A DNA stretch of 64,000 nt from Arthonia radiata. Its lineage: Eukaryota > Ascomycota > Arthoniomycetes > Arthoniales > Arthoniaceae. The position numbers and the translations under genes are program-made. Location: the NCBI GenBank assembly GCA_002989075.1, contig PSQN01000013.1:1460379-1524378 (forward strand), written 5' to 3'. Positions 1,024 through 54,761 of the stretch are shown piece after piece (positions within the stretch are counted from its first letter, which is position 1; every line of letters starts with the position of its first letter). A model generated the notes under the pieces. The model saw nothing but the letters and a program-made list of their open reading frames with translations, was not told the DNA's origin and ran no database searches.

Positions 1024-2204
1024 GGGCTGAGCACGACGAAAACTGCAATGCATAGCGTGGCGTTGGGCAACAACATCGGGCTTTGAGCCGCAGGTATGTA
1101 GATATGAGATTACTGACGAAACGATGAAAACGACGAGACGACAGTCTTGGTATCTCAGGTTCAACCTCCATTTGTCACAGCAGCTTGTAACCCTCTTCTC
1201 CCTCAAGACTGTCTCAATTCACCGCGTCTGCGAAATGGACTCAGCAAAATCATTCAACAGCACTCACACCAATGCTTTTCCCAGGTCCAGCTTCCCGCAT
1301 CTACTCGCATATGTAAGCTCGCAACCTTCTCGCTCAACGTAACAGACTGCAGCTGCTCTTTCAGCAAAGCACCCAGGAGCGCGTACATGGAAACATGGCA
1401 GTGTCAGACCCTCCCTAATTCAACATCGCCGGCAAGCTGCTAGTTATTCTGGGGGTGTACGATGCATCACGGCTGCTACCATATAGCCAAGCTTCCAACA
1501 AGTATGATACAAACGCCTGCAACCGCTCAAAAAACATTCGCGTGGGCGAACTGATAGAAGATTCACATCATCCGCTCCATCGCGGCTACCCGCCTGCGAC
1601 TAGCCTTTTCAATAGTGTTTTACACCCATGACGTATCAGTGTCGCTGTAAAGCATCTTCTTCGCTGGGTTAGGCTCTAACTGGGCTGAAAGACGTGCATC
1701 TAATTCTAAAAGGGATTGGTACGTGGGCTTGAGGTCGAGTAGACATTGAGCACTGCAGATGCTCGTTGCGAGCGTAGGTCGGATGACAGGCGTAAGTACA
1801 TGAGCAACATGGATTTTGAGGTTGCGGCTGGTAGCCTAGTGGATCCACTCGAATTAACATAGAGTCGTGGACAATGTAGCGAAGAGCAATGAAGAACAGT
1901 CTATATTGGACACCGTAGGACGCGTAGAAAAGAGGCGAGATGGAAGGAGAGCTTCCTGCTTGTGGAAGACGTTCTCACTGCAGAGCCAACCTAATATGAT
2001 GCCGATTCATCATGAACGACGTGCAATGATATATGTGCATCTATACATCAATCCTCTTCATATCATCGACATACCCACCCTCGTGACCTTACATACCCCA
2101 GCCACCCTCATCCAACACCGCTCATACCCCTCCCTCTCCCTCTCCGTACCCCCCAAATACACCTCCCATTCCCTCCACCACCCCCCTCCCCTCATCCCCC
2201 CAAG
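1024..2204. other. Intergenic region, convergent ends of CSN4 and PEX5
   Basis: About 1.2 kb between two gene 3' ends. It holds short open frames in several directions without codon bias or recognisable domains, and a pyrimidine-rich stretch at about 2080-2200. I see no supported gene. Confidence 0.6.
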
Positions 2205-4338
2205 CTAAAACTCAAACTCCCCCCGAAAACTCCACGGATCCATTCCCGGCCCCACTCGCTCCGCCAAATCCCTCCTCTCCATATTATTAAAAACCTTCCT
2301 CAGCGTATCATACAGGTTCGTGCTCGAATTGTGCTTAATCGCCTTCTCGAACGCCTCCTCATCGCTCCCCAACCCAGCTCCATCCGCACTGCTAATCCCA
2401 TTACTGCCCTCCACAATCTCGCGTGCTTTCTCCCGGCCCTCCCGCTCCACCATCTTGTGCATGTCCAGCGCGCCGAGGAGGTGCTGCGCGGCCTCTTGGA
2501 AGCACCCGATGTTGATGCAGCTGACGCCGAGGTTATAGCGCGCGCGCACGAAGTTCGGGTTGAGCTCTAGGGCTTTTTCGTACGCGGTGATGGCTTCTTC
2601 GGAGCGGCCGCTGTTGGCGAGTGTGGCGCCGAGGCGGTTCCAGAGTAAGGGACGCTGGTTGATGCTTTGTTGGCTGTTCAGGGAGCCTGTTTCTGAGGAT
2701 TGGAGGGCCGCGGAGAAGCAGTCGACGGCTTTGTCGTACTCCTCTTTTCCATAGAAGAGGACGCCGAGTCCGACCTGCACGTCTGGGTCCATACTTTGCG
2801 GGTCTGGCGACAGTTGGGCTGCGCGGATGAACTCGTCCGTTACGCGTTGGTGGAGGGCCTCGCCATCGGTGAAACTGATGTCTTCATTTTCGCGGCCTTT
2901 TGGAGGTGGGCCAAATTGTGGGTACTTTGCGCTGAGCCAGCGCTCGAGCGTTTTGTATGCGTTGCGCTCGTAGCCTTCGTTGACATAGGATACTGATAAG
3001 CCCATGAGCGCGTCGAGGTTGGTGGGGTCACGTTGGATGGCGTTTTCGAGCGCGCGGATGGCTGGGAGTTCTTTTTCGTTCTGGGCTTGCGCGGTGCCGA
3101 GTCGGGTCCAGGCTTCGACGTGGTCGGGCTCTTTCTGGACGGCGGCTTCGAAGGCGAGGGCGGCAAGGGAAAGGTTCCCGTGCTCGTCCATGATGCGGAC
3201 GCCCTCCTCGAAGGGGTTGGAAACGTCGGAGAAGATATTGTCGGGTTCGAAGAGGTAGTTGCCCGTTTCAAGGTTGGCGGGCACGTGCGTGTTGAGGTCG
3301 AGGTTGTTCATGTCGAAGTTGGCGAAGTCGTCATAGTCGTCTTTGGTGAAAGCTCTGTTGCGGAGTTCCGGCGTTTCAGCGAGGATCTTCTGCCACGTGG
3401 ACTCGAAGTCGCCGAGGAGGGCTTCGTTGGCGGGAGTGGGGTTGTCGAGGAAGGAGTCGAGGTGGGAGGGGTGGACTGACCTGTCTATGTCTGAGAGCTC
3501 GCGCTCCATGGCTGCTTGGGCTTCGTCGTCGAGGGCTTCTGTCTGGTCGGCGGGTTGAGAGTCGAGTTGTGCGAATTGCGCCTCCCAGTCTGTGTCATCG
3601 AGCTCGACCATCCGGCCTTTGCCCTTGTCTTGCGTTGTGTGTTGCTGTTGGGGCTGCATCTGTGAAAAGCCCATACCGCCGCCATACGGTCGTTGCATGC
3701 CCATGCCCATGCCCATACCCATAGTGTTGCCGTACATAGGGCTATAACCCGTGTTCATGCCGCCCGTTGGTCGCTGGTATGTGCTTCCACTTGCCATGCT
3801 GCCATTCGCTGTCTGTGCTTCGCCGTTCATGCCAGCCTGCTTCATTTGAGCATACCGCTCAAATTCCGTCGGGTCGAAGCCAGCAGGCTTTTGAGGGTTG
3901 TGTAATTGCGGAGCGCCGTCAAATTGGCCAGCCCATTCTGCCTGCGACGGCGTCGAATTCCGCTGTGGGACCTGTGCTGGACCGGTGTGTAATTGCTCGA
4001 ACTCGCGCCGTAACTGGTCTACAGCGAATGGCGATGCGGGGGTCTGCAGACCTGGCATTTGCGCAGACTGATTCGCGAACTCATCCATCATCTGTACCAA
4101 CGTCAGCCATATGAGAGAAGGATAGCCAGACCTCGCAACTCCAAACATGCATGCTCACCTCATTGCCTTGAGGGCCTGGTATTGCTCCGCTACGGAACCC
4201 TTCCTGCATGCCACCCGGGCCTCGTCCCACCAATCGGTCTCTTTGTAAGCTCTTGTCATCTTGTACATGCTTCGAGAATTGATTTAGAGGATTGGCGCCG
4301 GTCGAACAAGAAGCATCGCCGCCACCTAAGAATGACAT
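2205..4338 (-). CDS. pex5: Peroxisomal targeting signal 1 receptor PEX5
   Basis: Cytosolic shuttling receptor that binds C-terminal SKL-type signals and delivers cargo to the peroxisome membrane. Proposed model: exons 4338-4159 and 4091-2205, with a 67-nt intron (gtgagc...acag), giving about 688 residues. The first exon starts MSFLGGGDASCSTGANPL and carries the conserved N-terminal cysteine (Cys11) used for export-linked ubiquitination, followed by KHVQDDKSLQRDRLVGRG. WxxxF-type motifs (WAGQF, WEAQF), which bind PEX14/PEX13 in this family, lie in the N-terminal half. The C-terminal half holds TPR repeats (for example AWTRLGTAQAQNEKE and LWNRLGATLANSGRSEEAI) and ends WSFRGEFEF. An ATG at 4148 opens an unspliced frame, but that would lose the conserved N-terminus, so the spliced start is preferred. 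Confidence 0.93.
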
Positions 4339-41268: not shown

Positions 41269-43329
41269 ATGTCTGAATCTACTTGTGAGATGCCTGTCAG
41301 AACATCTCAGGGTGGCACGGACTATATAACTAGCCTGCCAAACGAGATATTAAACCTGATCGTCGGGTTTGTTGCCCCTCATTCATCGGAGCGGATTTAC
41401 GATGATGTCCAGCAACCGCCATGGGGGCTTTACAACGATTTTGCACATTGGAAACAAGATTGCAGCGCATTGCGCCGTGTATGTCGAATTTTTGCGCATA
41501 TGGACATGCTGAATGAGGCTCTGTTCCATACGTTCTACTGGTTTCCTACCGCGTGAGCCTTTCAGTTGTGCACTTGGGTCAGGGTCGTTGCTAATTACAT
41601 CATAGACTAAGCATGGACCGACTGCGTTGTATAGCCGCGTCGGAGACACTGTCGCCACTTGTAAGTCCTTTGCTAGATATCCGGTATCTTAGGATGTGGA
41701 CGCTCGGCCAAATGCGGTCTTCTAACCAGCGACCAGATAAGGCGCATCTGCTTCCTCCGGCCCCTGTTTGGCTTCCATGCCTCTGAATCGAACGATGTGA
41801 GGAGAGAATTAGAGCCAAAGTGGAGATTAAAATATGCTCGGCTCGTTCCCTCACGTCCCGACCTTCCGGAGCACGAGCGATGGTCATATATCACCGCGCT
41901 CTTAGACTCTCAAACGTCGAAAGACGCCGCTGAGCTGCGCGAAGCCGGTATGTTCTCAGAGCATATCGTGCACCCGCATGCAGCTGTTGTTCTGATCAAA
42001 ACATCTTAGTCTCCAAGTTAAACTTGTATCAGGAGTCAGCCAAAGGTGTCGCCAACAGCGAGACCAACATTCTACTCATCGCGCAGGCTGCACACTGCTT
42101 TCGCAACCTTCAGAGCATAGCATTTTATGGACTGAGCGACGATGAGCTAATCAACTCACCATCATACGATCTCACCATGCCCAGACGCGCGGCGTTGATT
42201 AGGAGGTGTTACCGTTCGCTTCCGGTCTCTACCGTGCCGCATCACACGCAAAACTGTCACTGTCGCCACAACTTCGTCCGCAGGATATGGAACGCCATGT
42301 GTGCGATACATTTGCAGCCACGAGAGGTAACACTCGGACCTTGCCTTGATCTTTGCGATATCGAGGGCGGCGATTGGCTGAGCATGAATATGAGTAAGCT
42401 GGAAATGCTTGCGCTGATGCCAGCCGCCGAGAAGTGGTCAGGCGTCGATATTTCGTCCACACGTCGGCTACTCAGACAATCTAGCTCATTTGCGAACTTG
42501 TACGAACTACGAATAGCTCGGCAGCCGTGGTCAAAGTTGGTGATCATCGTTGAAGATGATTTCGCGTTCGAGCTCAGTCAATTGAAAATCCTCTCGGTCT
42601 GGGACGTGACGGTCGGGAGGGGCGATATGGGGCGGGTGCTGGTCCGACTGCCACGACTGGAAGACGTCAAGTTGTGCAACATTGACGTCAATGATCTCGG
42701 TAGCTTTTCTCTGGAGTGGCTCAGCATCTTCCGTTATCTGGCAAGGAAGAAGCACATGAGCGGACTGAAAAGTCAGTTCAAGCGCTTGAGGTGAGATGAT
42801 ACTTTTGCACATCGTACTTGAAATACTAGGCTAATGATTTGCATAGGCTCTTTCGTGATCAATATGACGAACACAACGTCTGGGTAAGTCTCGAGCATCA
42901 ATATCCTACTTTTCTGCCCAATTGGCGTCCTATTCGTACTGTTCGTTTACAATAGTCAATATTGGCTTAGGCAGATGCGATATGCTCAGCATTCACAATG
43001 GCATACCCAGCTAATATGCGCGACAGACATGCGAGGCAACAGAGCCTTACCTGCCCCTTCGCAACCTACGTGATTACATCGGCAAAAGAGGGCCGTGGAC
43101 GAAGCTGTTGGACAAAGAGTTTGATATCGATACTGAAGAGGGGGCTGCCAATGATAATACGGCGGAAATGACGATTTCACTTCCAGTCCCGACAAGTCTG
43201 CAGCACTCAGCGGTGGACGAACAACCCCCCAGTTCGGCTCTCGAGGAACGACCACCAAGCTCGGTCATGGACGAGCAATACGTGTCTGACGAAGAACCGC
43301 CCAGCTCTGTGCTGCAAGAGATGCTGTAG
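41269..43329 (+). CDS. Array paralogue A: F-box-like protein
   Basis: Six exons: 41269-41552, 41606-41660, 41737-41947, 42010-42790, 42847-42883 and 43027-43329, about 556 residues with consistent phases. The F-box-like start is ITSLPNEILNLIVGFVAPH. Next come CSALRRVCRIFAHMDMLNEA and LFHTFYWFPTALSMDRLRCI, the family block, interrupted by a phase-2 intron after FPT. It has NCHCRHNFVRRIWNAMCAIH, then CLDLCDIEGGDWL, the family CxxC...W motif. The C-terminus is GPWTKLLDKEFDID, followed by a PPSS-containing tail repeated three times (QPPSSAL, RPPSSVM, EPPSSVL). It is the only plus-strand member. Function is unknown; an SCF adaptor role is inferred only from the F-box-like start. Confidence 0.68.
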
Positions 43330-43393
43330 CATAAAGAGGTTTGAACGCCGTTCCTTGATCACGTGGCATGCCGTGGTTTCCCTGAGTCAGCTC

Positions 43394-45338
43394 TCACATG
43401 TCGAACAGCACTGAACTTGGAGGCTCCTCATCCGAGCTTGCGACATCCGAGTAATGAAGCTCGTCCTCGTCACGCGCAGCTTTGGGAAACGTCTTATCAA
43501 GCATAGCAGACCACTCACCGTGGCCATGAACGTACGCCAAAAGATCCTGCGTATCCGGATCACTCAAAGAGTTGCAAGCATACATGTCAGTGCCTCCAAT
43601 AATTTCAGCAATCCTGGGGTAATCAGCACGTCGCATGGTCGGGATGATTCGGAGGAAGACCCACTGGAGCTTGCTGACTTCTACGACAAGATTTTGCTTG
43701 TTCCGCAACATGTTCAGAGTGTGACGCCATTCTGGCCCACGTTCGCAGGGCGACACCAGGTCGATCTCCTCCAGTAGAATACGTTCCAAGCGTGGAAGCC
43801 TGCACAACACATGCGCGATCTGTCCTCGTCTTGCCACAAGGCCGGAAACAGCCAGCGTACGCAGTGCCAGCTGGATGTGGATGTTAGCTTGGCGAGCGAT
43901 GAGTACCAGGGAGAGCCGTTAGCTTACTTTATTCATGGACGCCACGGCGCACTCCGCGAAAAATCGCGAAGACTTCCCAGCCACCTGCAATTCTTCAAGC
44001 GCTGTCATACAATCGAAAGGACTGCTGCTGACGCTACTAACAGGTAAAGCAAAGTCCAAGAAATCATCGTACGTGTAGGCATTGAGTGCCAATTTTCGTA
44101 GGTGTGTGAACTCCTGGCGATGGATTAGCGAGCAAAGTTGCAGAGGTGCAGACCACTCACCAGCGGCACCCAATCCGGCCCCTTCATATCACAGCTCGTC
44201 TCACATGGTCCCATATTCAGCTCTTTCGGTTTGAAATCCGCAGTCCGAAGAAAGGCGAACATTCTAGAGACGAAAGAATGTTGGTTGACACAGCTATTGG
44301 TGTAGGTGAGCTGGTTGTGATTGGTAAGGATGTCTGCATGAGAACGCTGGATCAAGCTGTTTCTGTCTGGTGCCATCAGGTCTATGCTGCCCCGCTTAAG
44401 TGCAGTGAAGTCGAAATCCAAGGCATTGAATTCCAGCGTGACTAGGTTCGTTAACCTTTTCAAGCTCAGTGCAACCTCGACAAGATTTCTGTTTGCCTCG
44501 ACAAATTTACCAGCTTTCTTCTGGATATCGTGCAACAATGACAATGCAGATGACTTTTCTCTCTTAGTGAGAAGCGGACGCGTCTCGGCAAGGTGTCTGA
44601 AGACTTGACGACTCTCCCACGAAGGAACAGCTGGGTAGGCGGGTACAATTGCTCATAGCGTTCTCGCGTGCGCATCTGCATCTGCTTGTCAAAGTCTGCA
44701 GGATCTGTGCAGTGGTATCCGAACAAGCCGCGATACAGTACAACTTTGCGAACCTGAATTGTTGATTAGTTTGACAGCAGGTTGAAGCAATTGCGTCTCG
44801 TCAGGCCCCGCCATCAATGCTTTCAGAGCTCTGTGGTGGCCGTACGCAGACAACGTCTTGCATGTTCCCGCCTGATAGGTGAGAAAGTTGTTGTGATGAT
44901 TATGCGAACGTACCAGGGGTGCCATACGCGAATCGGATATCGCTATCATCTTCTTGAGACATTCACTATGCATGTCAGCTCACGTCGCAGGTGCTATTGT
45001 CTGCAGCTTGACAAGCTAACGTAAGAGCGAACGCACTCCTTCGGGAACCACCATATCGTGTCGAAAAGCAATTTCCGCGGAATCTCAAGGTCTTCGAACG
45101 CGCGGCACACCAGACGTAGATTGATACACTGCTGCTTCCAACCCCTGAAGAGCTCGACCTGTTCAGTCGGTGGTAGTCCGACGTGATCCCATGTTCGTAA
45201 ATCCCAAGGTACAAGAGTCTTGACGATGAGATTTAATGTCTCGACAGGCAATGCCAGAAGCGGGCTGGCGTGATTTGTGACAGTCTTGGGAAAAGGCGAG
45301 TAGCAGCTGAGCGGCGAGGACAGTCCGTGGTTAGACAT
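43394..45338 (-). CDS. Array paralogue B: F-box-like protein, tail-to-tail with A
   Basis: Six exons: 45338-45037, 44965-44914, 44753-44613, 44553-44161, 44113-43928 and 43870-43394, about 516 residues. It has the F-box-like start LALPVETLNLIVKTLVPWDL, then LRLVCRAFEDLEIPRKLLFD and TIWWFPKDECLKKMIAISDS. The continuation is VRKVVLYRGLFGYHCTDPAD. The motif CETSCDMKGPDWV corresponds to the CxxC...W block. The tail is GEWSAMLDKTFPK, ending SSDEEPPSSVLFDM, like the end of A. Introns 1 (phase 2, inside the FP block) and 2 (phase 0, after APL) match A exactly. The third intron has a weak donor (gtcgtc), so that junction is uncertain. Stops of A and B are about 65 bp apart. Confidence 0.62.
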
Positions 45339-45854
45339 CAGAATGGTAGGATAGCTCTACGATTTAGGATAGTCTCTTCTCGCGATGGTGATCTGCAGTG
45401 AAGATGTCTCTCACGAATACGTCGTTAGCTGCGCTTCAGCGTAGATGAAGGGAAGAAGCTGTGGGCTCCGTCTGAACTTTTTGGCTTCCCCAACGTTTTG
45501 CCCTTGTGGTTCAAATACGCTCTGTGACATTTATTCTAAGCACTGAGCACCTTGACATCGTGTTCGTGTCTCTATAATCTTTGCGAAGCCTATCTGATTG
45601 CCACGTTCAATGGAATTTAACAAAATGTGAAGGCGGACGACAATGTGGAAGATGAGGCACGCGTCCGGACGGGAAGCAAGGGCTTGGCATATATCACGTG
45701 ATGGCGCGTTTTGACCACATCGGAATTGAAATGTCGAGCATACGGGGGGCTATGCTTCTGTCTTCAACAAAGTCTTTTGCACATCAGATAACTGGCGTAG
45801 CAATTGTATTGGGAATCTCAGGGCGATTCTTCTCCCTGGCGAGGGCTCTGCTGC
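45339..45854. other. Spacer between paralogues B and C
   Basis: About 500 bases, upstream of B and downstream of C. No coding remnant of the family is recognised; presumably B's promoter. Confidence 0.4.
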
Positions 45855-47379
45855 CTATGTCCTTTCGCTCAGCCGTCCTGACCCCGCTTCAGATATCCCG
45901 AACTCCTTGTCCAAGTCCTCCGTCCAGGGCGCGGATCCTGCCACAAAAGCCTGCAGTAGCAGCTTCACACTTCGCTCGATACAGACGCGCTCGACTCCTT
46001 GACCACGATCGCTCACCAGTGTAGTCATGTCTCTTGACGTCAAGCTGTGGAAGTCTCCTGTGATCTTCTTTGAGCGTAAAAGCTTGAACACCTTGAACCA
46101 TGCTTCGCCGAGCTCAGGTTCATGAGTAAGCCTGATGCCGAACAAGTTCAAGACTTTGAGAGCGGGCACGACCTGGATTAGCCCGCGAAGGTGTTCGCCG
46201 GTCTTGAATGTTGTCTCGTAGCAAGACAATCTGCTCACGCAAGGGTAAAGGTAGGACTCGGCTTGGCGCATATGGCTAATGACTGCGGATGCTGCGACGC
46301 CTCCTATCTGAAGCTGTTCAGTATCAGCCAGCTGACCGAATGGATTGATGGTCCTGAAGCCAGCCAGGTCGCCGGTTGCTGCCCCAAGGTCGTCGTCCGA
46401 CAGTCTAGGTCCTAGACTCTTATATGAAATCATTTCACCGCAGTCCATCTTCAGCCAATCGCCTCGACATCTGGAACAGCATGCGCCAAGTTCGATAAAG
46501 GAGACATCTCGAGGACGGATAGCTGTCTCGCAAAGCGCGTTCCAGATCTTGCGAGTGTAAGCGGCACCGGCATGGCACGTGTGTCGACGAGCAGGTGCTG
46601 GTATGAGGAGTGTTCCAACTGGGTCGATGCATGTGGTCAGCAATGGGTAAGCCATGTTTATCGGGAAGGCCGTGGTTGAATCAAACCAGCAAAGGGTTTC
46701 ACGAAGCGGCGCGAACACCAGTTTGCTAAACGAACAATCAGTATACGTACATCGCAGTTGATGACGTGAAGCCAATGGCTCATGTGAAGTAGACTTACTA
46801 TACTCGTCGCAAGCGCTCAACGCTCTCCTTCAAGGTCTTGGATGACCGCTGGGCCTTCAAAGAAGCAATCTCGTGATATCTCTGACCAAGCTTACTTTGC
46901 CGAAACCCCATATCTTCGGTCTCTGATCTCATGCCGTGGTCTGTTCTGAGGAACACTAACTCGCGTACCACAGCCGCCAACATGGGGTTCTTCGAGATCG
47001 CCTCTAGACGATGAAGGCTGGCGTCCGTGGGCAGGAAGTAGAACGTCCCGAACAAAGCTTTGACTGCCGTCTGCGAGGCTGCAAACTTGCGGCGGACAAG
47101 ACGAAAGCTGGCGAGATCTTCCTTGTACTGGAGGTGGGCAACGCGATAAGCTTCGAGCTCTTCCCTCGATTCATCAGTCCAGACTAACTCACTCGGTCCA
47201 GGGCTCAGGCATTCCGCAATCTTGTCGATGACTTCGTTTGGCAAGTCGAGGATGCCAGTGCGCGGGCGCGGAAGGCACACCCGGATCTTTGGCGGCAGGT
47301 CTTCCGGTGGCTCGGTTGGCGCTTTTGCTTGCAAGTGTGGCGGTAGCTTCATGTGGAAGTCATGAGTCCATGTAGGCAT
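45855..47379 (-). CDS. Array paralogue C: F-box-like protein
   Basis: Two exons, 47379-46799 and 46725-45855, with a phase-2 intron (gtaagt...tttag), 483 residues. An in-frame GTG upstream is not used; ATG at 47379 gives MPTWTHDFHMKLPPHLQAKA. The F-box-like part is ILDLPNEVIDKIAECLSPGP with SELVWTDES. Then come SFRLVRRKFAASQTAVKALF and GTFYFLPTDASLHRLEAISK, followed by VVRELVFLRTDHGM. After the intron it has RHTCHAGAAYTRKIWNALCE and CCSRCRGDWLKMDC, the Cys motif. The C-terminus is SAPWTEDLDKEFGISEAGSG. The DAFGG-type block is diverged here (CIDPVGTLLIP). Function is unknown. Confidence 0.7.
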
Positions 47380-47845
47380 GATGACTGAACGTGCTAACGA
47401 AAGGTTGAAGGAAGAGGAGAAACCATGAGACACGTGAAGTCCATGTGTTGTGCTGATGCCCCGCTAAACAACTGAAGTCACCGGGGCAACGTGTCATGGC
47501 AACGTATCATTGATCGCTACTTTGGTGATGATGATCGATACTAAGCAGAATGCTCGTAATCGTTCCGAAAGAGGTGGACCAGGTGAGTGGAAGCCGGCGC
47601 CGGAAAATAGCACCTGCTTGGCTCCGCCTGGCCATCCTGAGATCAACTTCTCGGCCATACTCTCGACTTTCTATAGCATTCTGTGGGGCACAGACGGTCT
47701 TTGAAGATGCCGACTGGATAGCCGCATCTCCACTGAGCCGCCTTACAGCGCCGGGCTCATACGCCTCGGTGTTACGACTCATTCTAATCTAACCCACTTC
47801 GCTGCCGTCGCGAAGCTTCAGCTCGCGATTCTGCGCCACGATCAT
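47380..47845. other. Spacer between paralogues C and D
   Basis: About 470 bases with presumed promoter of C. Frames on both strands near 47510-47790 show no family motif. Confidence 0.4.
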
Positions 47846-49264
47846 CTAGGCCTGCAGGATCTTGAACTCCTTGTCAAGAAGCGCCGTCCACTGGTCGCCT
47901 TTGCAAACATATGCCCCGAGGTGCTCGCGGGCCTGCGCAGTGGTAACGGCATCGATGACCGCCTGCGGATGGGGCCTGTCGCGGCCCTGCCAGAATTCGG
48001 ATCTGAACTTGAAGAAATCTCCGGTGATGTTCCTCCCTCGCAATGAGGTGAAGATGTCAAACCACGCCAGTCCCACTTTTGGCTCCCTACCAAGATGTAC
48101 AGCCATGAACGACACTTCATTCAAGGCGGGTAGTCTTGCAAGTAAAAGTTTCAGCGCTGCTTGATCGTCGACCATCACATCGATGAGGCTAAGCCTCTTG
48201 ACTTTGGCCATGTGGTATTCAGTATGGTCGCGGCAGTATTGTGTGATCCACTTGGCGGCAGCTTTGTAGAGGTGCAGTCCTGTCAGCTGTGATGCGCCCT
48301 GCAGGGGCTCAAGGAATGTTCTTGTTCGGTTGGGTAAATAAATTGGTCCCGTTATAGTATCTTTTCTCCCGAAGGTCAGCCGTAACTCAACGAGATCACT
48401 GAAGTCCATCGGTGACCACTCTGCATCGCAGCTGCTGCATTCACGACCATGGAAGTCAATACAGATCTCCTTCGGTCGCGGCAATGTTTCGCAAAGCAAG
48501 TTCCATAAAGTTTTAGTCCGCCCAAGACCCGTGTGGCAATTATGTTGTGACTGTAGGCACTCAGGAATGAGCACACCGCCAAACGCGTCCATGAAGACGG
48601 TGTGCATAGGTGCTGCAAAGTCGATGGTCTTCGTTTCCTGGAACTGCGGAAGCAGCCGTCTTGGGTCTTGCATGTTGGCAAAGTCAAACCGTCTGTAAAT
48701 TGCAATTCAGTCAGCCTTCGGGAGCATGGCCTCATTTCCTTGGCCGTTTCGCGCGTACCTCACGTTGGGCAAGCGGCCAATGTATTGTGTCACTATGCCT
48801 TTCGTACGCTCAGCCTGCTTACTTGCAGCCGCACGAAAACCACCACCGACGAAGTTTCTCTGCTGGAACGCCCAGTGACGAGGCTCAATTCCGACTTCTG
48901 CAAGCAGGAAGACGAAGCGCTCGACAAGCGGGGCGCACGACGAGCTTCTAGCCACTTCCCGTAGTCGAAATACCGTGCAGTCAGTGGGGAGGAAGTAGAA
49001 TGTCTGGAACATTAGGCTCTTCGGTGTTTGCCAAGTAGCCAGGCGGCGACATGTCAGACGAATGCTTCCCAACTGCTCTTTGAGCTCATAATGGTCGGCG
49101 CGGTCTCTCATGATGTCGACTTGTCTCTCGCCGGTCCAGATGCGTTCTGCAGGGCCGCTGGTAAGGTGTTGCACGATCTTATCAAGGACTTCGTTAGGCA
49201 GTCCTAGGATTTGTGCGTTTGCATTCGTCATTGTCGCCTCAGCGGGCGGTGACGATACGGCCAT
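47846..49264 (-). CDS. Array paralogue D: F-box-like protein
   Basis: Two exons, 49264-48759 and 48692-47846, with a phase-2 intron (gtacgc...tttacag) after RLPNV, 450 residues. The F-box-like segment is ILGLPNEVLDKIVQHLTSGP, then AERIWTG. It continues SIRLTCRRLATWQTPKSLMF and QTFYFLPTDCTVFRLREVAR, then APLVERFVFLLAEVGIE. After the intron there is TVFMDAFGGVLIPECLQSQH, CHTGLGRTKTLWNLLCETLP and ECSSCDAEWSPMDF. Leucine-rich stretches (ALKLLLARLPALNEVSFMAV) follow. The tail is GDQWTALLDKEFKILQA. It can serve as the reference member, because all family blocks are present and no break is seen. Confidence 0.75.
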
Positions 49265-49462
49265 GTCTGGTTCTCTGGCCGAGAGAGTGAGGGAGATGAG
49301 AGTGTGAGGTAAGGACGGAAGGGCAGGAGGAAACAGTGTCCAGACTTTAAAGACGCGTGGTGATGTTTCAGATCACTTGTTTGCCTGCGAACCGGCGTGA
49401 CGGGTGATCGGCTAGCTGCATGTGTGATGTCAACTGCTACTATATGTGACTACCCGCATTCA

Positions 49463-50908
49463 TCACTTGCCCGCGTCGCGACAATATGGCTCGAGCGGCC
49501 ACAAACCTGACTTGTACGCCTCAGAGATCTTGAACTCCTTATCAAGCTCAGCCGTCCAAACACCACGCTTGGCAACATAGTCCGCCAGTTCAGCCCTGAT
49601 ACGGCGTTCTGTGCAAGTGTTCGCAATGCCTTTGCTAAGAAATACGTGATTCTGCGGAGACATTGAGCTCAGCTTGTAGAAGTCTCCGCTGATGTTCCGA
49701 TCACGGAGGTAGTTGAAGAAATGGTACCAAGCCATCCCTTCTGTTGGCTCTTGTATCAGATATGAGCGGAACATGCTGATGTGGCCCAACCCTGGTAGCC
49801 TGCTGATGAATAATTCGAGCTCAGTATGACCAGCGAATACTGTCCAGTACAGTACTAGGGTCTTGATTTGCGCAAAAGAGTGCTCTGAACTTCTACGCAT
49901 AAGCTCAAGCAGCTGCGTTGCTGCGGCCCGATAGAGCTGCAACTCCTTGAGACGTGGACAATCGCAGAGGAAAATCGGCAAGAACTCTACGCGTGTTCGG
50001 TTATTCGCTGCGCCATTAGGGGGCTCGCTTTGCCATTTGAAGTCGTGGATGACCAATCGCTCAAGATTGCTGAGATCGAAGGTGTTCCATGTTAGGATTT
50101 CGGGCGCATATTCTCTCGATGGGATCCTCACCGATAGCATCTTCGGCTTCAGAGATTGCTGGCACAAAATGTTCCACAATTGAAGCGTGATGTAGATATT
50201 TGTTGGTAGATGCTGATCCAGAGGTACCATTGAACCACCGAAGGCGTCTGTGATGATTGGTCTAGGCGGCATGGTCATGTCTAACAGCTCGACTTCGTCC
50301 CGCGAAAGGGGAACGGGTGGGTTGAAAGGATGGAACGTCAAACCTCTGACAGTACGTTAGCATGCTCCTTGGCGCGGCTTAGTAGGCTCTACCGCTCACT
50401 CGAGGTTGCACAGCCGCCCTACGGCGTCTCTTAGCACGCTCAACGTGAATTTTGCCTTCTCCTGTGATAGTTTCTCAAATCGAGATGCCAGTTCAAGATC
50501 ATTGAAGCGCAAGTTTTTCACATCTTCTTTTGGCGTTCCAAGATGGGACCCAAGAAATACCATCCGCTTAACCAGCGGCGCACACTTCCGACTCCTCGCC
50601 AGGTCTCGCAGGCGGTACACAGTCCAATCCGTTGGCAAGAAATAGAAGGTCTCGAGGATGAGCCGTTTCAGTGTCTTCCAAGCAGCCCATCTGCGGCAGA
50701 CTAGACGCAGGTTGGATAGTGTAGGTTTGAGCTTGCGATGCGCGTCGCGGTAGGCCTTGAAGGCTTCTTCGCTCTCGTCGAGAGGCACGTGTTCGGCGGG
50801 GCCCGGTGTGAGGAAGCTGATGATCTTGTCGAGGACTTCGTTGGGGACTTTGAGGGCGATGAGGCTGGCGTTGTGGATTGCTGCCGGTGACGGTGGTGGT
50901 AGCTCCAT
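49463..50908 (-). CDS. Array paralogue E: F-box-like protein lacking the Cys pair
   Basis: Two exons, 50908-50400 and 50345-49463, with a phase-2 intron (gtgagc...gtcag) after LCNLE, 463 residues. The F-box-like start is ALKVPNEVLDKIISFLTPGP. It continues NLRLVCRRWAAWKTLKRLIL and ETFYFLPTDWTVYRLRDLAR, then CAPLVKRMVFLGSHLGTP. After the intron it has IITDAFGGSMVPLDQHLPTN and ITLQLWNILCQQSLKPKMLS. Where other members have CxxC...W, this one reads REYAPEILTWNTF, so both cysteines are missing while the Trp is kept. The tail is GVWTAELDKEFKISEAYKSG. The open frame looks intact. Confidence 0.75.
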
Positions 50909-51220
50909 TGTGGAGATGCTGTTGGGGCGTGGAGACGATGGGGAGAGGGTGAAAATGAATAAAGACTGAGTGAAAGAGGGAGAACTAGAGTCGGGGCGTA
51001 GCGAGGCAAAGAAATATCAAGGTCTGCAAAACCAGAAGCCCCACCTTCAGATCCACCATTTGAAATGTCTCCTATCTGGGCGACAGCTGCCGGAGGCCTA
51101 ACTTGCATCAAGACACTTGCACCTTCCCATGACCTTTTCGCTCTCGTCTACTTCCACCTCCAGATGCGAAGCTGAACAGCAGCAGAGCTCGTTGACGGCC
51201 TCACCGCCATCAAAGTTTCC
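50909..51220. other. Spacer between paralogues E and F
   Basis: About 310 bases upstream of E. Presumed promoter; no other feature is recognised. Confidence 0.4.
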
Positions 51221-52827
51221 TCACATAGCGGCATTGAGCATGCTCCCCCAACAGGGATCCCATGCCGCCCACTCGTAGTCTCGCTCCAAGCCCTCAACCT
51301 TTGACGTCCGAAATACTCTATCCAAATCCTGCGTCCACTTGCCCTTACCCTTAAAAAATGCTTGTAGATCGGCCGTCGGCTTGTCACGAGACGAACCCAT
51401 GAAGCGACAGCCTGTGGTACTTCGATCAGGTCCGCGAATTGGAAAGGCCGACAATTCCTTAAATATCCCATCTTGCAGTTTGATGTGCGCAAAGTATCGA
51501 AGATCCCATACCACGTCTGACCCGTTGCATTCTGTAAGATGATTTCGAGAAGATTGATACACTTAAGCGACGAAAACCTCGAGACCAAGCGCTCGAGAGA
51601 TTCGGCATTCTCGAAATTGGCGTTTGAAAGCTTCAGTAATTCAAGCTGTGGGAGCCAGGTGCGAACGCGTGACACAGAAAGATCCATGTCAGCGAAATCT
51701 TCAGCAGCAATACCATTGAGCCATAGCTCCTTGAGCTCCGGGAGTCTGTTGGAAAGTCCCGCTGTGAAGAACGTATCCATACCATCATCAAACTCTCTCT
51801 CGTAGAAATCGTGCACATAGCGAGATACCTGAAGGCACCTTAGCTTGTTGCCTTTGATTGTGAGCCAGCCATCGCGACACTCGTCAAAGAGACGGCCGTA
51901 AAGCTGCACGCTGAGTTCTTGAGGAGTGACGTCGCTGGTCGCTAATGCATTCCAGAGTTTCTTGACTCTCCCAACATCCGGGGTGCAAGAATGACCGCCG
52001 AGTGTCGATCCATGAAATGGTCCACCGCCCAGTGAATCCATGAGCGTGCTTGCTCGGGGAGTGGCCAAATCGATTTGAACTCCCTGCTGGAAACAGCCTT
52101 TGTATTGCTCAGGCTCCAGAAGCGAGGAAAAGGCGATATGACTTGGTGGTGATTAGCTATCTAGGATGAGAGAACACGCATGAATGCACGACTCACACCA
52201 AGTTCGGAAGTTTCTCCATGTAAAGGTTAACGTTGTGGCAAGTGCGTTCAGTTCTGACTGCCGCAATCTGCCGAAGATCCTCCTGAATCCAATTATCACG
52301 CTCGCTGTCTATAATTGGGTACATTTCGGCTCGTATAGCGGTGTTGGTCTGCACGAAGGCAACCTTACGAACCAATGGTGCGGTTTCCGGGTTACGGGAC
52401 ATTTCTCGAAGACGATACATTGTCCAGTCTGTGGGAAACCAGTAGAAAGTGCCCTGAATGCTGGTGTCAGCAATGATCGCCAGCAAATCTACCTGGGTCA
52501 ATGTCAACTCACAAATAGATCCTGCTTTGGTGTCTCCAGTCGGCTGAATGCACGACATGTGAGTCTGAAGGAGAACAGACGGCCTTTCCAGTCCCGCAGA
52601 TCTTCGATTTTATCCCGCGAGTAGCCATAGGTTCCGTTCGTCGAGATACGCTCGGCGGGTCGAAGCATGAGCGCGCCAGCGATATTCTCGAGGATCTCGT
52701 TAGGCATATTTAGGATTGAAGGGCTCTGGCTGGGCATTGCTGCGGTCGCAGGTGCTGCCATTGGAGTCGTTGACGCTGATGGCAGTGGCACAAAGGGGGA
52801 CGGCGCTGAGGCGGTTGACGATACCAT
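51221..52827 (-). CDS. Array paralogue F: F-box-like protein, probable C-terminal frameshift
   Basis: Exons 52827-52513, 52453-52197 and from 52141 onward. Start block: ILNMPNEILENIAGALMLRP. Middle: SFRLTCRAFSRLETPKQDLF, then an extra phase-0 intron, then GTFYWFPTDWTMYRLREMSR and APLVRKVAFVQT. The phase-2 intron after LPNLV matches the other members. After it: TLMDSLGGGPFHGSTLGGHS, RVKKLWNALATSDVTPQELS and DECRDGWL. Homology to G runs in one frame to about 51400 (VPQAVAS). It then continues in another (ADLQAFFKGKGKWTQDLDRV, VEGLERDYEWAA), ending at 51221. Either a single-base frameshift or a non-canonical 41-nt intron (51412-51452) explains this. It may be a decaying copy. Confidence 0.6.
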
Positions 52828-53107
52828 TGGCCGATGTCAGTGGAGGAGTGAAGGAAGTGAGTGAGTGAGCGGGGATAGAGGCAAGAAGAGAGTGAGCTAG
52901 CAAGGGAGATTCTTTCTTGCCCTATGCTGTTTCTGGAAATTGCTTGCGCCGCCACTTTGATGAGTGCTACTAGCACTTGAAGTTTGGCGGGTCAGATGTT
53001 GATGCTTACATCCCTGCACTCCAACTTGGTCCGTTGTTTCTCGTCTCTTTACGTACGAGATGCCAAACGGAGTCTGGCTCATCTGCCTAAGTGTCGAGGG
53101 TCGCAAT
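52828..53107. other. Spacer between paralogues F and G
   Basis: About 280 bases upstream of F. Nothing recognised beyond the presumed promoter. Confidence 0.35.
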
Positions 53108-54761
53108 CTACGCTGCTACACCATTATCATCGTTTCCATCCGCGTCAGCATCGCTTTCCGGAACATCCTCAGTGTCGTCGCCACTGTCATAACCATCTCC
53201 GAGGTCGAGGTCTGAAACGTCCTCTTCGCTATCCTTCGCCGCCCAAGTATAGTCCCTGTCGAGACCTTGTACACTGGACGTGTAAAAGATCTCATCCAGC
53301 GCTTCGGTCCATAAGCTTCGGTTCGTGATGAATGCTTGCAGGTCATTATTGCTTGTCTTGGTTCTCGAAATCGCGACCACTCGGGGCGTACCCATCTCTA
53401 CCGCAGCGATCATCAGATTCTTGAACTCCACTCGCGAGCAGCTGCAGCTGCGAAGTACGTCAAATAAACGGTACCACACCATTCCATGTTCAAACTTTAT
53501 GCAGAGGTTCTGGAAGCTCGCTGAGCTGATCTGAGGAAACTTGAGCACCAAATCTCGTACCTGATTTTCCGCATCCAGCCCAAATTTGCAGTTGGAGAGT
53601 TTCAAGACCTGAAGTTTGGGTAGCCAGCTGCGAGTGCCTTCTTTCGCGAATTCAACTTCGCCAAATTCTTTCACAGCTCCACCGCTCAACCACAACTCTT
53701 CAAGCTGAGCGGCGACGGAGATTGCCTGCGTGAAGAACTTCACAGACTCATCCTTCAAAGCCCAGTCATGCATAATCGTTCCGTCCGTAGAGATATGAAG
53801 GGTTCGCAGCCATTCGCAGTTAACACTTCGCCATCGAGATTTGCACGACTCGCACTGATTGCCGCAGAGCTTCATTGTAAGCGCCTCTAAGCGTATGCCG
53901 CTTCCGACGATCGAATTCCAAACTGTCCTCACTTGCAATGTTTCTCTGTAGCAGTGGTGGGCTTGGTCCTCTCCCAACTGCACTCCCCAGCCTCCAGTAG
54001 AGTCCATCAGCGCATCGTGGCGTGGTGTTGCCAAATCAACGGGAAACCCAGAGCGAAGACAGTCTTTATAGTCCTGGGGAGTTAAGGTTGGCGTAACCGC
54101 AACATGGCTGAAATCAAATGTTAGTTTGAGTAGCAGGCTTGGCACTTATTGAGCTCAGGACTATTCCGACTTACGTGACGTTAGGGAGCTTCTTCATATG
54201 GAGAGCAAGGTTGTGGGATGTGTTTGCCGCTCTCCGATAGCTCTGTTGTTGCATGTTCGAGCCAGTCCAATCGTCTTCGGCATATCGTGAATGACGAAAG
54301 TTCGAGTCAGCCCAATCGTCGCCGATATGCTGCGAATAGTGAGCGTCTTCCCAAGAGGAACCGGTGTATGTCTGCAAGAACGTGATCTTGTGCACGAGTG
54401 GTGCAATGCCGCAGTCGTTAGAGATTTCGCGAAGTCGGTACATTGTGAATCTAGTAGGCAGCCAGTAGAAGGTATTGAAGAGGTCCTTCCTCGGGGTTGT
54501 GAGAAGGCTGAATGCGCGGCATGCTAGACGAAAGGAGTACAGAGTCTCTTTCCAGTCTCGTATCTCGCTCTTATCAGCCTCGGTGAGGCCTCTAACACCG
54601 GTTGTTGTCACGCGTTCTTGAGGCCGCCAAACGAGGGCCTCTGCAATTTTCTCGAGCACTTCGTTAGGCATTTTCAAGACGGGAACGTTGTTGTTGACCG
54701 CTTGGTGAGCGATGTCGATCACTGGAACTTCTTCAGCTGCCCGAGGATTGTTGTTGGCCAT
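53108..54761 (-). CDS. Array paralogue G: F-box-like protein with acidic tail
   Basis: Two exons, 54761-54175 and 54107-53108, with a phase-2 intron (gtaagt...tttcag) after LPNV, 528 residues. ATG at 54761 gives MANNNPRAAEEVPVIDIAHQ; an in-frame TTG upstream is rejected. The F-box-like part is VLKMPNEVLEKIAEALVWRP. It continues SFRLACRAFSLLTTPRKDLF and NTFYWLPTRFTMYRLREISN, then PLVHKITFLQTYTG. After the intron come DALMDSTGGWGVQLGEDQAH, CYRETLQVRTVWNSIVGSGI and QCESCKSRWRSVNC. The tail SLWTEALDEIFYTSSVQGLD matches that of F, and is followed by an Asp/Glu-rich end. It is closest to F within the array. It is the right-hand boundary member. Confidence 0.72.

Follow-up and report, generated by a model that had tools for sequence, protein, structure and literature searches.

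The stretch analysed here is a window of 64,000 nucleotides from the ascomycete Arthonia radiata (contig PSQN01000013.1, positions 1,460,379 to 1,524,378), in which positions 41269-54761 are occupied by an array of seven genes, named A to G, related to F-box proteins. Open frames in this segment were enumerated on both strands and joined at GT-AG introns, so that every splice site in the gene models is a predicted one. The first-pass annotation had presented the array as tandem. Its outer limits coincide with the initiation codons of genes A and G, but A is encoded on the forward strand, opposite to B to G, and lies tail to tail with B. The spacers between consecutive genes from A to G are 64, 516, 466, 198, 239 and 280 bases long, which leaves little space for the unrelated gene whose absence had been claimed; the antisense frames over the genes were not inspected singly.

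Gene A (41269..43329, +) encodes 556 amino acids in six exons (41269-41552, 41606-41660, 41737-41947, 42010-42790, 42847-42883 and 43027-43329), comprising a putative split F-box, a repeat half, a WTKLLDKEF tail and a C-terminal SDEEPPSSVL, and its best match is B (E 7.7e-47). Gene B (43394..45338, −; 519 amino acids, six exons) has two intron sites and the SDEEPPSSVL end in common with A. Gene C (45855..47379, −; 483 amino acids, two exons) carries a CxxC...W motif. In gene D (47846..49264, −; 450 amino acids, two exons), the second exon is the part modelled as leucine-rich-repeat-like (LRR-like), and the split F-box, computed from the gene model, would lie approximately at 48983..49201 (−), from helix 1 (LPNEVLDKI) through an insert to helix 2 (RLTCRRLA) and up to FLPT. 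Gene E (49463..50908, −; 463 amino acids, two exons), which is without CxxC, gives the top F-box-like score of the array, and gene G (53108..54761, −; 528 amino acids, two exons) has an acidic C-terminal extension. Gene F is less regular: its repeat frame was modelled at 51148..52827 (−; 521 amino acids, three exons) with a C-terminal frame unlike that of its relatives, and a second frame bearing the family tail (WTQDLDRVF...) is found at 51221..51562 (−), with 51% identity to residues 440-489 of G.

The seven spliced models match each other by BLASTP in all 42 ordered pairs, the weakest at E 5.4e-7, with identities of 21-38% over mostly long alignments. Searching the genome (33.5 Mb, 16 contigs) with D, G, A, I and part of J recovered at least four further members, so the family extends beyond the array. 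Two of these, H and I, lie head to head on contig 1, at about 3.966-3.969 Mb (locus stretch L045, 2568-4297, +, and 445-2239, −, respectively); J is located on the same contig near 4.048 Mb, with an approximate gene model, and K at about 0.471 Mb on contig 14 (locus stretch L047, about 2126-4065), with a partial one. On the strand opposite to K, at a distance of about 3 kb, there is a canonical F-box match (contig C14:467850-467984). A weaker, distant relative, which occupies a single long frame at about 0.195 Mb on contig 11 (locus stretch L053, 513-1883, −), was retrieved at E 0.05 in the genome search and at E 3.1e-5 with B. Additional members may exist beyond those reached with these five queries.

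When the outside members are included, A-B, D-E and F-G are reciprocal best matches and C finds D without reciprocity; all best matches of the array therefore fall inside it, in agreement with the proposal that the seven are each other's closest relatives in the genome. As a control, stretches from six F-box clusters located elsewhere in this genome were compared with the 11 family members (A to K), and nothing better than E 0.2 was obtained. This failure of unrelated F-box clusters to match, together with the 42 matching pairs, upholds the view of a single F-box-like family. The motifs by which the family had been described fared unevenly. In the LWN/CxxC...W block, the W is present in all seven proteins and WN in six (not in B), but CxxC is restricted to C, D and G (3/7). 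The WT..LDKEF-like tail is recognisable in all seven, although in F it sits in a different reading frame (51221-51562).

At Pfam cut-offs, these proteins stand outside the named domain families, as the first-pass annotation had anticipated: none of the seven array members exceeds the cut-off of PF00646 or PF12937, whether searched as exons or as spliced proteins, the same applies to H, I, J and the N-terminal part of K, and none of the 11 aligned members is among the 32 PF00646 or the 69 PF12937 matches of the genome. The top F-box-like score in the array, that of E, is 19.3 bits for exon 1 and 17.7 for the spliced protein (cut-off 24.3). Sub-threshold Pfam matches are to F-box or F-box-like models in some members and to LRR models in others, and the spliced A and C proteins have no Pfam match at E <= 1. 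Where the F-box-like matches span the region, 55-61 residues are aligned on 29-36 profile positions, which corresponds to an insert of 25-26 residues. Using hhalign, we then aligned the profile built from the 11 members to one built from 13 canonical F-boxes that this genome also encodes. In global mode, the two profiles align along helix 1 and, after a gap of 26 columns, again from R-L-x-C-R (P 1.7e-6, probability 80%), and the local alignment covers helix 1 only (P 4.5e-6, probability 87%); a local-mode control with reversed columns gave P 0.29. A profile relation to canonical F-boxes is thus present, with helix 1 followed by helix 2 in order. In addition, a model of the 13 canonical F-boxes, when run against the 11 members alone, detected 7 of them at E <= 0.01, and the same split layout is observed in 11/11 aligned members, with a longer insert in K. 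On this sequence evidence, the region is best read as an F-box interrupted between its first and second helices by about 26 residues, and the first block after the start, previously regarded as unnameable, is best read as containing the displaced helix 2 (R-L-x-C-R).

A structure model of exon 1, with a predicted local distance difference test score (pLDDT) of 44.5, is too low in confidence to show an F-box fold. Searches of a protein database with the seven-sequence alignment (7996 candidates, none at E <= 0.001) and with the exon 1 alignment (2377 candidates, none at E <= 1) returned no relatives; this database seemingly holds no fungal relatives of this kind, and we do not read the empty results as evidence of lineage restriction.

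The model of D exon 2 is LRR-like (pLDDT 74), with weak matches including TIR1, COI1, Skp2 and D3, and the family profile weakly matches FBXL5 and TIR1 by sequence, with repeats that score below the Pfam LRR cut-offs. Judging from the model of this one member, the second half of the proteins would adopt an LRR-like fold, and the later shared blocks, which had also been taken for an unnameable domain, lead into this half. Conservation along the proteins, measured as the mean pairwise identity over the seven (F being left out for the last two regions), is 22% at the N-terminus, 35% in the F-box with its insert, 44% in the TFYFLP-APLV block, 19% in the middle, 20% after the intron, 22% from LWN to the end of the repeats, 12.5% in the region after the repeats and 47% in the tail. 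Adaptors with different targets would be expected to show such conservation of the docking end and the tail around a diverged middle, although the pattern is compatible with other scaffold roles as well.

The adjacency of A-B, D-E and F-G, which are also nearest relatives, is as expected from local duplication. In the five pairs computed, the proportion of nonsynonymous differences (pN) is 0.43-0.55 and that of synonymous differences (pS) 0.75-0.83. This saturation of synonymous sites agrees with old duplications, one of the two options given in the first-pass annotation (old or fast-evolving), and the sequences indicate that the copies are old and, on average, constrained; it also means that positive selection cannot be judged from these pairs. 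Repeat-induced point mutation (RIP) was considered as a source of the divergence and found no support, the RIP indices of the array being like those of the flanks.

A single founder for the whole array does not emerge clearly from the tree. In a tree of the 11 members (200 bootstrap trees; the J model being approximate and K partial), C-G form a clade with support 98/98, which includes F-G (100/98), C-D-E (97/95) and D-E (95/93), and the five genes have in common one phase-2 intron at the same alignment column. A and B have two other introns in common (phase 2 and phase 0), the phase-0 one recurring in H on another contig, and the second-best match of B is I (92.8 bits), ahead of all C-G. The whole array is recovered as a single clade in just 9% of the bootstrap trees, with two label changes on the tree. 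From these sequence comparisons, the array may consist of two adjoining clusters, as its single origin lacks tree support. Nevertheless, the matches do not agree on one order, since A, after B, matches C best (107 bits, compared with 102 for I), and the tree may be distorted by the long branches of K, J and H. That A-B and C-G are two local clusters of the same family lying side by side, rather than the array of one founder, is therefore an idea that we hold tentatively, at somewhat less than even chances. It concerns the history of the genes and not their function, and fits alongside the explanation as receptors of SCF (Skp1-cullin-F-box) ubiquitin ligases given below.

The ends of A, B and F deserve separate consideration. 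The C-termini of A and B (43205-43329, +, and 43394-43450, −) close with SDEEPPSSVL followed by a few residues, in proteins that are about 27% identical as a whole. When the genome was scanned with a degenerate DNA pattern for DEEPPSSV, the two sites in A and B were the only matches, and the reversed pattern gave 0 and 0. Between the two genes, 8 of the 10 codons of SDEEPPSSVL differ and every difference is silent, a pattern that suggests selection on the peptide rather than recent copying. A contains two more PPSS copies upstream, and this end may serve as a short motif for binding or phosphorylation. In F, the repeat frame and the tail frame differ within 51148-51562 (−) and no convincing intron joins them, the shortest candidate being of 41 bases with a poor donor; the end may be decaying, the intron may be unusual or the assembly may be wrong at this point.

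Altogether, the seven genes are probably old, diverged paralogues of the F-box/LRR type that act as substrate receptors of SCF ubiquitin ligases. The common descent, the array order, the match of the split F-box to canonical profiles and the conserved ends with a diverged middle form the sequence basis of this proposal, from which we infer Skp1 binding, a ubiquitin-ligase role, substrate recognition and a role for the tail. For Skp1, the genome contains one match, and for cullins five, of which three are long. The N-terminal split F-box would dock on the Skp1 of this single match, and the substrate would be bound by the leucine-rich-repeat half, with the conserved WT..LDKEF tail as a cap or closure of the repeat, while local duplication and divergence of the repeat half would have produced receptors of differing specificity. 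A bolder proposal, rather improbable in our opinion, is that of a fungal split-F-box receptor class in which the insert alters the Skp1 contact or makes docking switchable, the array keeping at least six receptors with diverged binding faces as a standing SCF repertoire. Nematodes and plants have F-box clusters whose layout is comparable to such a repertoire.

The interruption itself can also be turned against SCF membership. The helices parted by the conserved insert are those gripping Skp1 in known F-boxes, and the sub-threshold Pfam scores extend to all seven array members, H, I, J and the N-terminal part of K, as would be the case if the split F-box no longer bound Skp1 and the proteins were LRR scaffolds or other adaptors merely resembling F-box proteins. 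The claim that the fungal F-box protein Fbx23 is a transcriptional coactivator counts in the same direction (PMC11750091). However, helix 1 (LP.E.L..I) and helix 2 (R-L-x-C-R) are recognisable in the 11 members despite the saturated synonymous sites of the pairs tested, which suggests constraint, and we regard such a loss of Skp1 binding as unlikely. The irregular end of F, with its two frames and its poor 41-base candidate intron, would in turn suit a decaying relic of birth-and-death evolution, in which a number of copies, including at least F, are losing function and no current role is shared. This is very unlikely for the array, given that the six other modelled genes are open over 450-556 codons, that pN is below pS in 5/5 pairs, that the RIP indices are no different from those of the flanks and that the end common to A and B has changed by silent codon differences only.

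If the SCF-receptor explanation is retained, the closest known systems are found in the FBXL class (Skp2, TIR1, COI1, D3, FBXL5 and yeast Grr1), with which the family shares an N-terminal F-box-like region, an LRR-like second half and a tail after the repeats. Grr1 is reported to bind Skp1 via its F-box and to recruit substrates via its LRR (PMC13117327). In contrast to this class, the array family displays the F-box interruption of about 26 residues, sub-cut-off repeats, a long block between the F-box and the repeats and the WT..LDKEF tail. The ordinary F-box genes of the same genome have the helix 1 and helix 2 motifs, and some form small clusters, but their F-box is uninterrupted and mostly above the Pfam cut-off (56 of the 69 PF12937 matches). 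The six other clusters comprise 2-4 matches within a few kilobases, some below the cut-off; the stretch at C3:357001-365000 (L048), for example, has four F-box-like matches on one strand, one of them below the cut-off, and belongs to a different family. In the filamentous fungus Macrophomina phaseolina, 31 F-box genes are reported, with neither cluster nor duplication, in contrast to the seven in tandem here; LRRs occur in five of its proteins, comparable to the LRR-like half of our family, and similarity is very low outside the L, P and E of the F-box (PMC7991009). A literature search by titles and abstract openings found no report of a fungal tandem array of split F-boxes. The F-box/LRR kind is already known; what is unusual here is the interruption of the F-box, together with the cluster size.

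The array is flanked by a thioredoxin/glutaredoxin gene on the left and by SCO1 on the right, and a ribosomal protein S4 fragment is found near it, with its closest matches in chains 7r81_F2 and 5oql_m, both from filamentous ascomycetes. Neither Rfam (at gathering scores) nor a tRNA scan (with the bacterial code) found anything in the whole window.

F-box families are commonly counted by domain models. As none of the 11 aligned members appears in either F-box list of this genome, such counts may miss entire receptor families, and, if the split F-box binds Skp1, the definition of the F-box would be broadened. The tandem set also provides a defined example of old duplicates whose ends are still similar while the presumed target-binding half has diverged.
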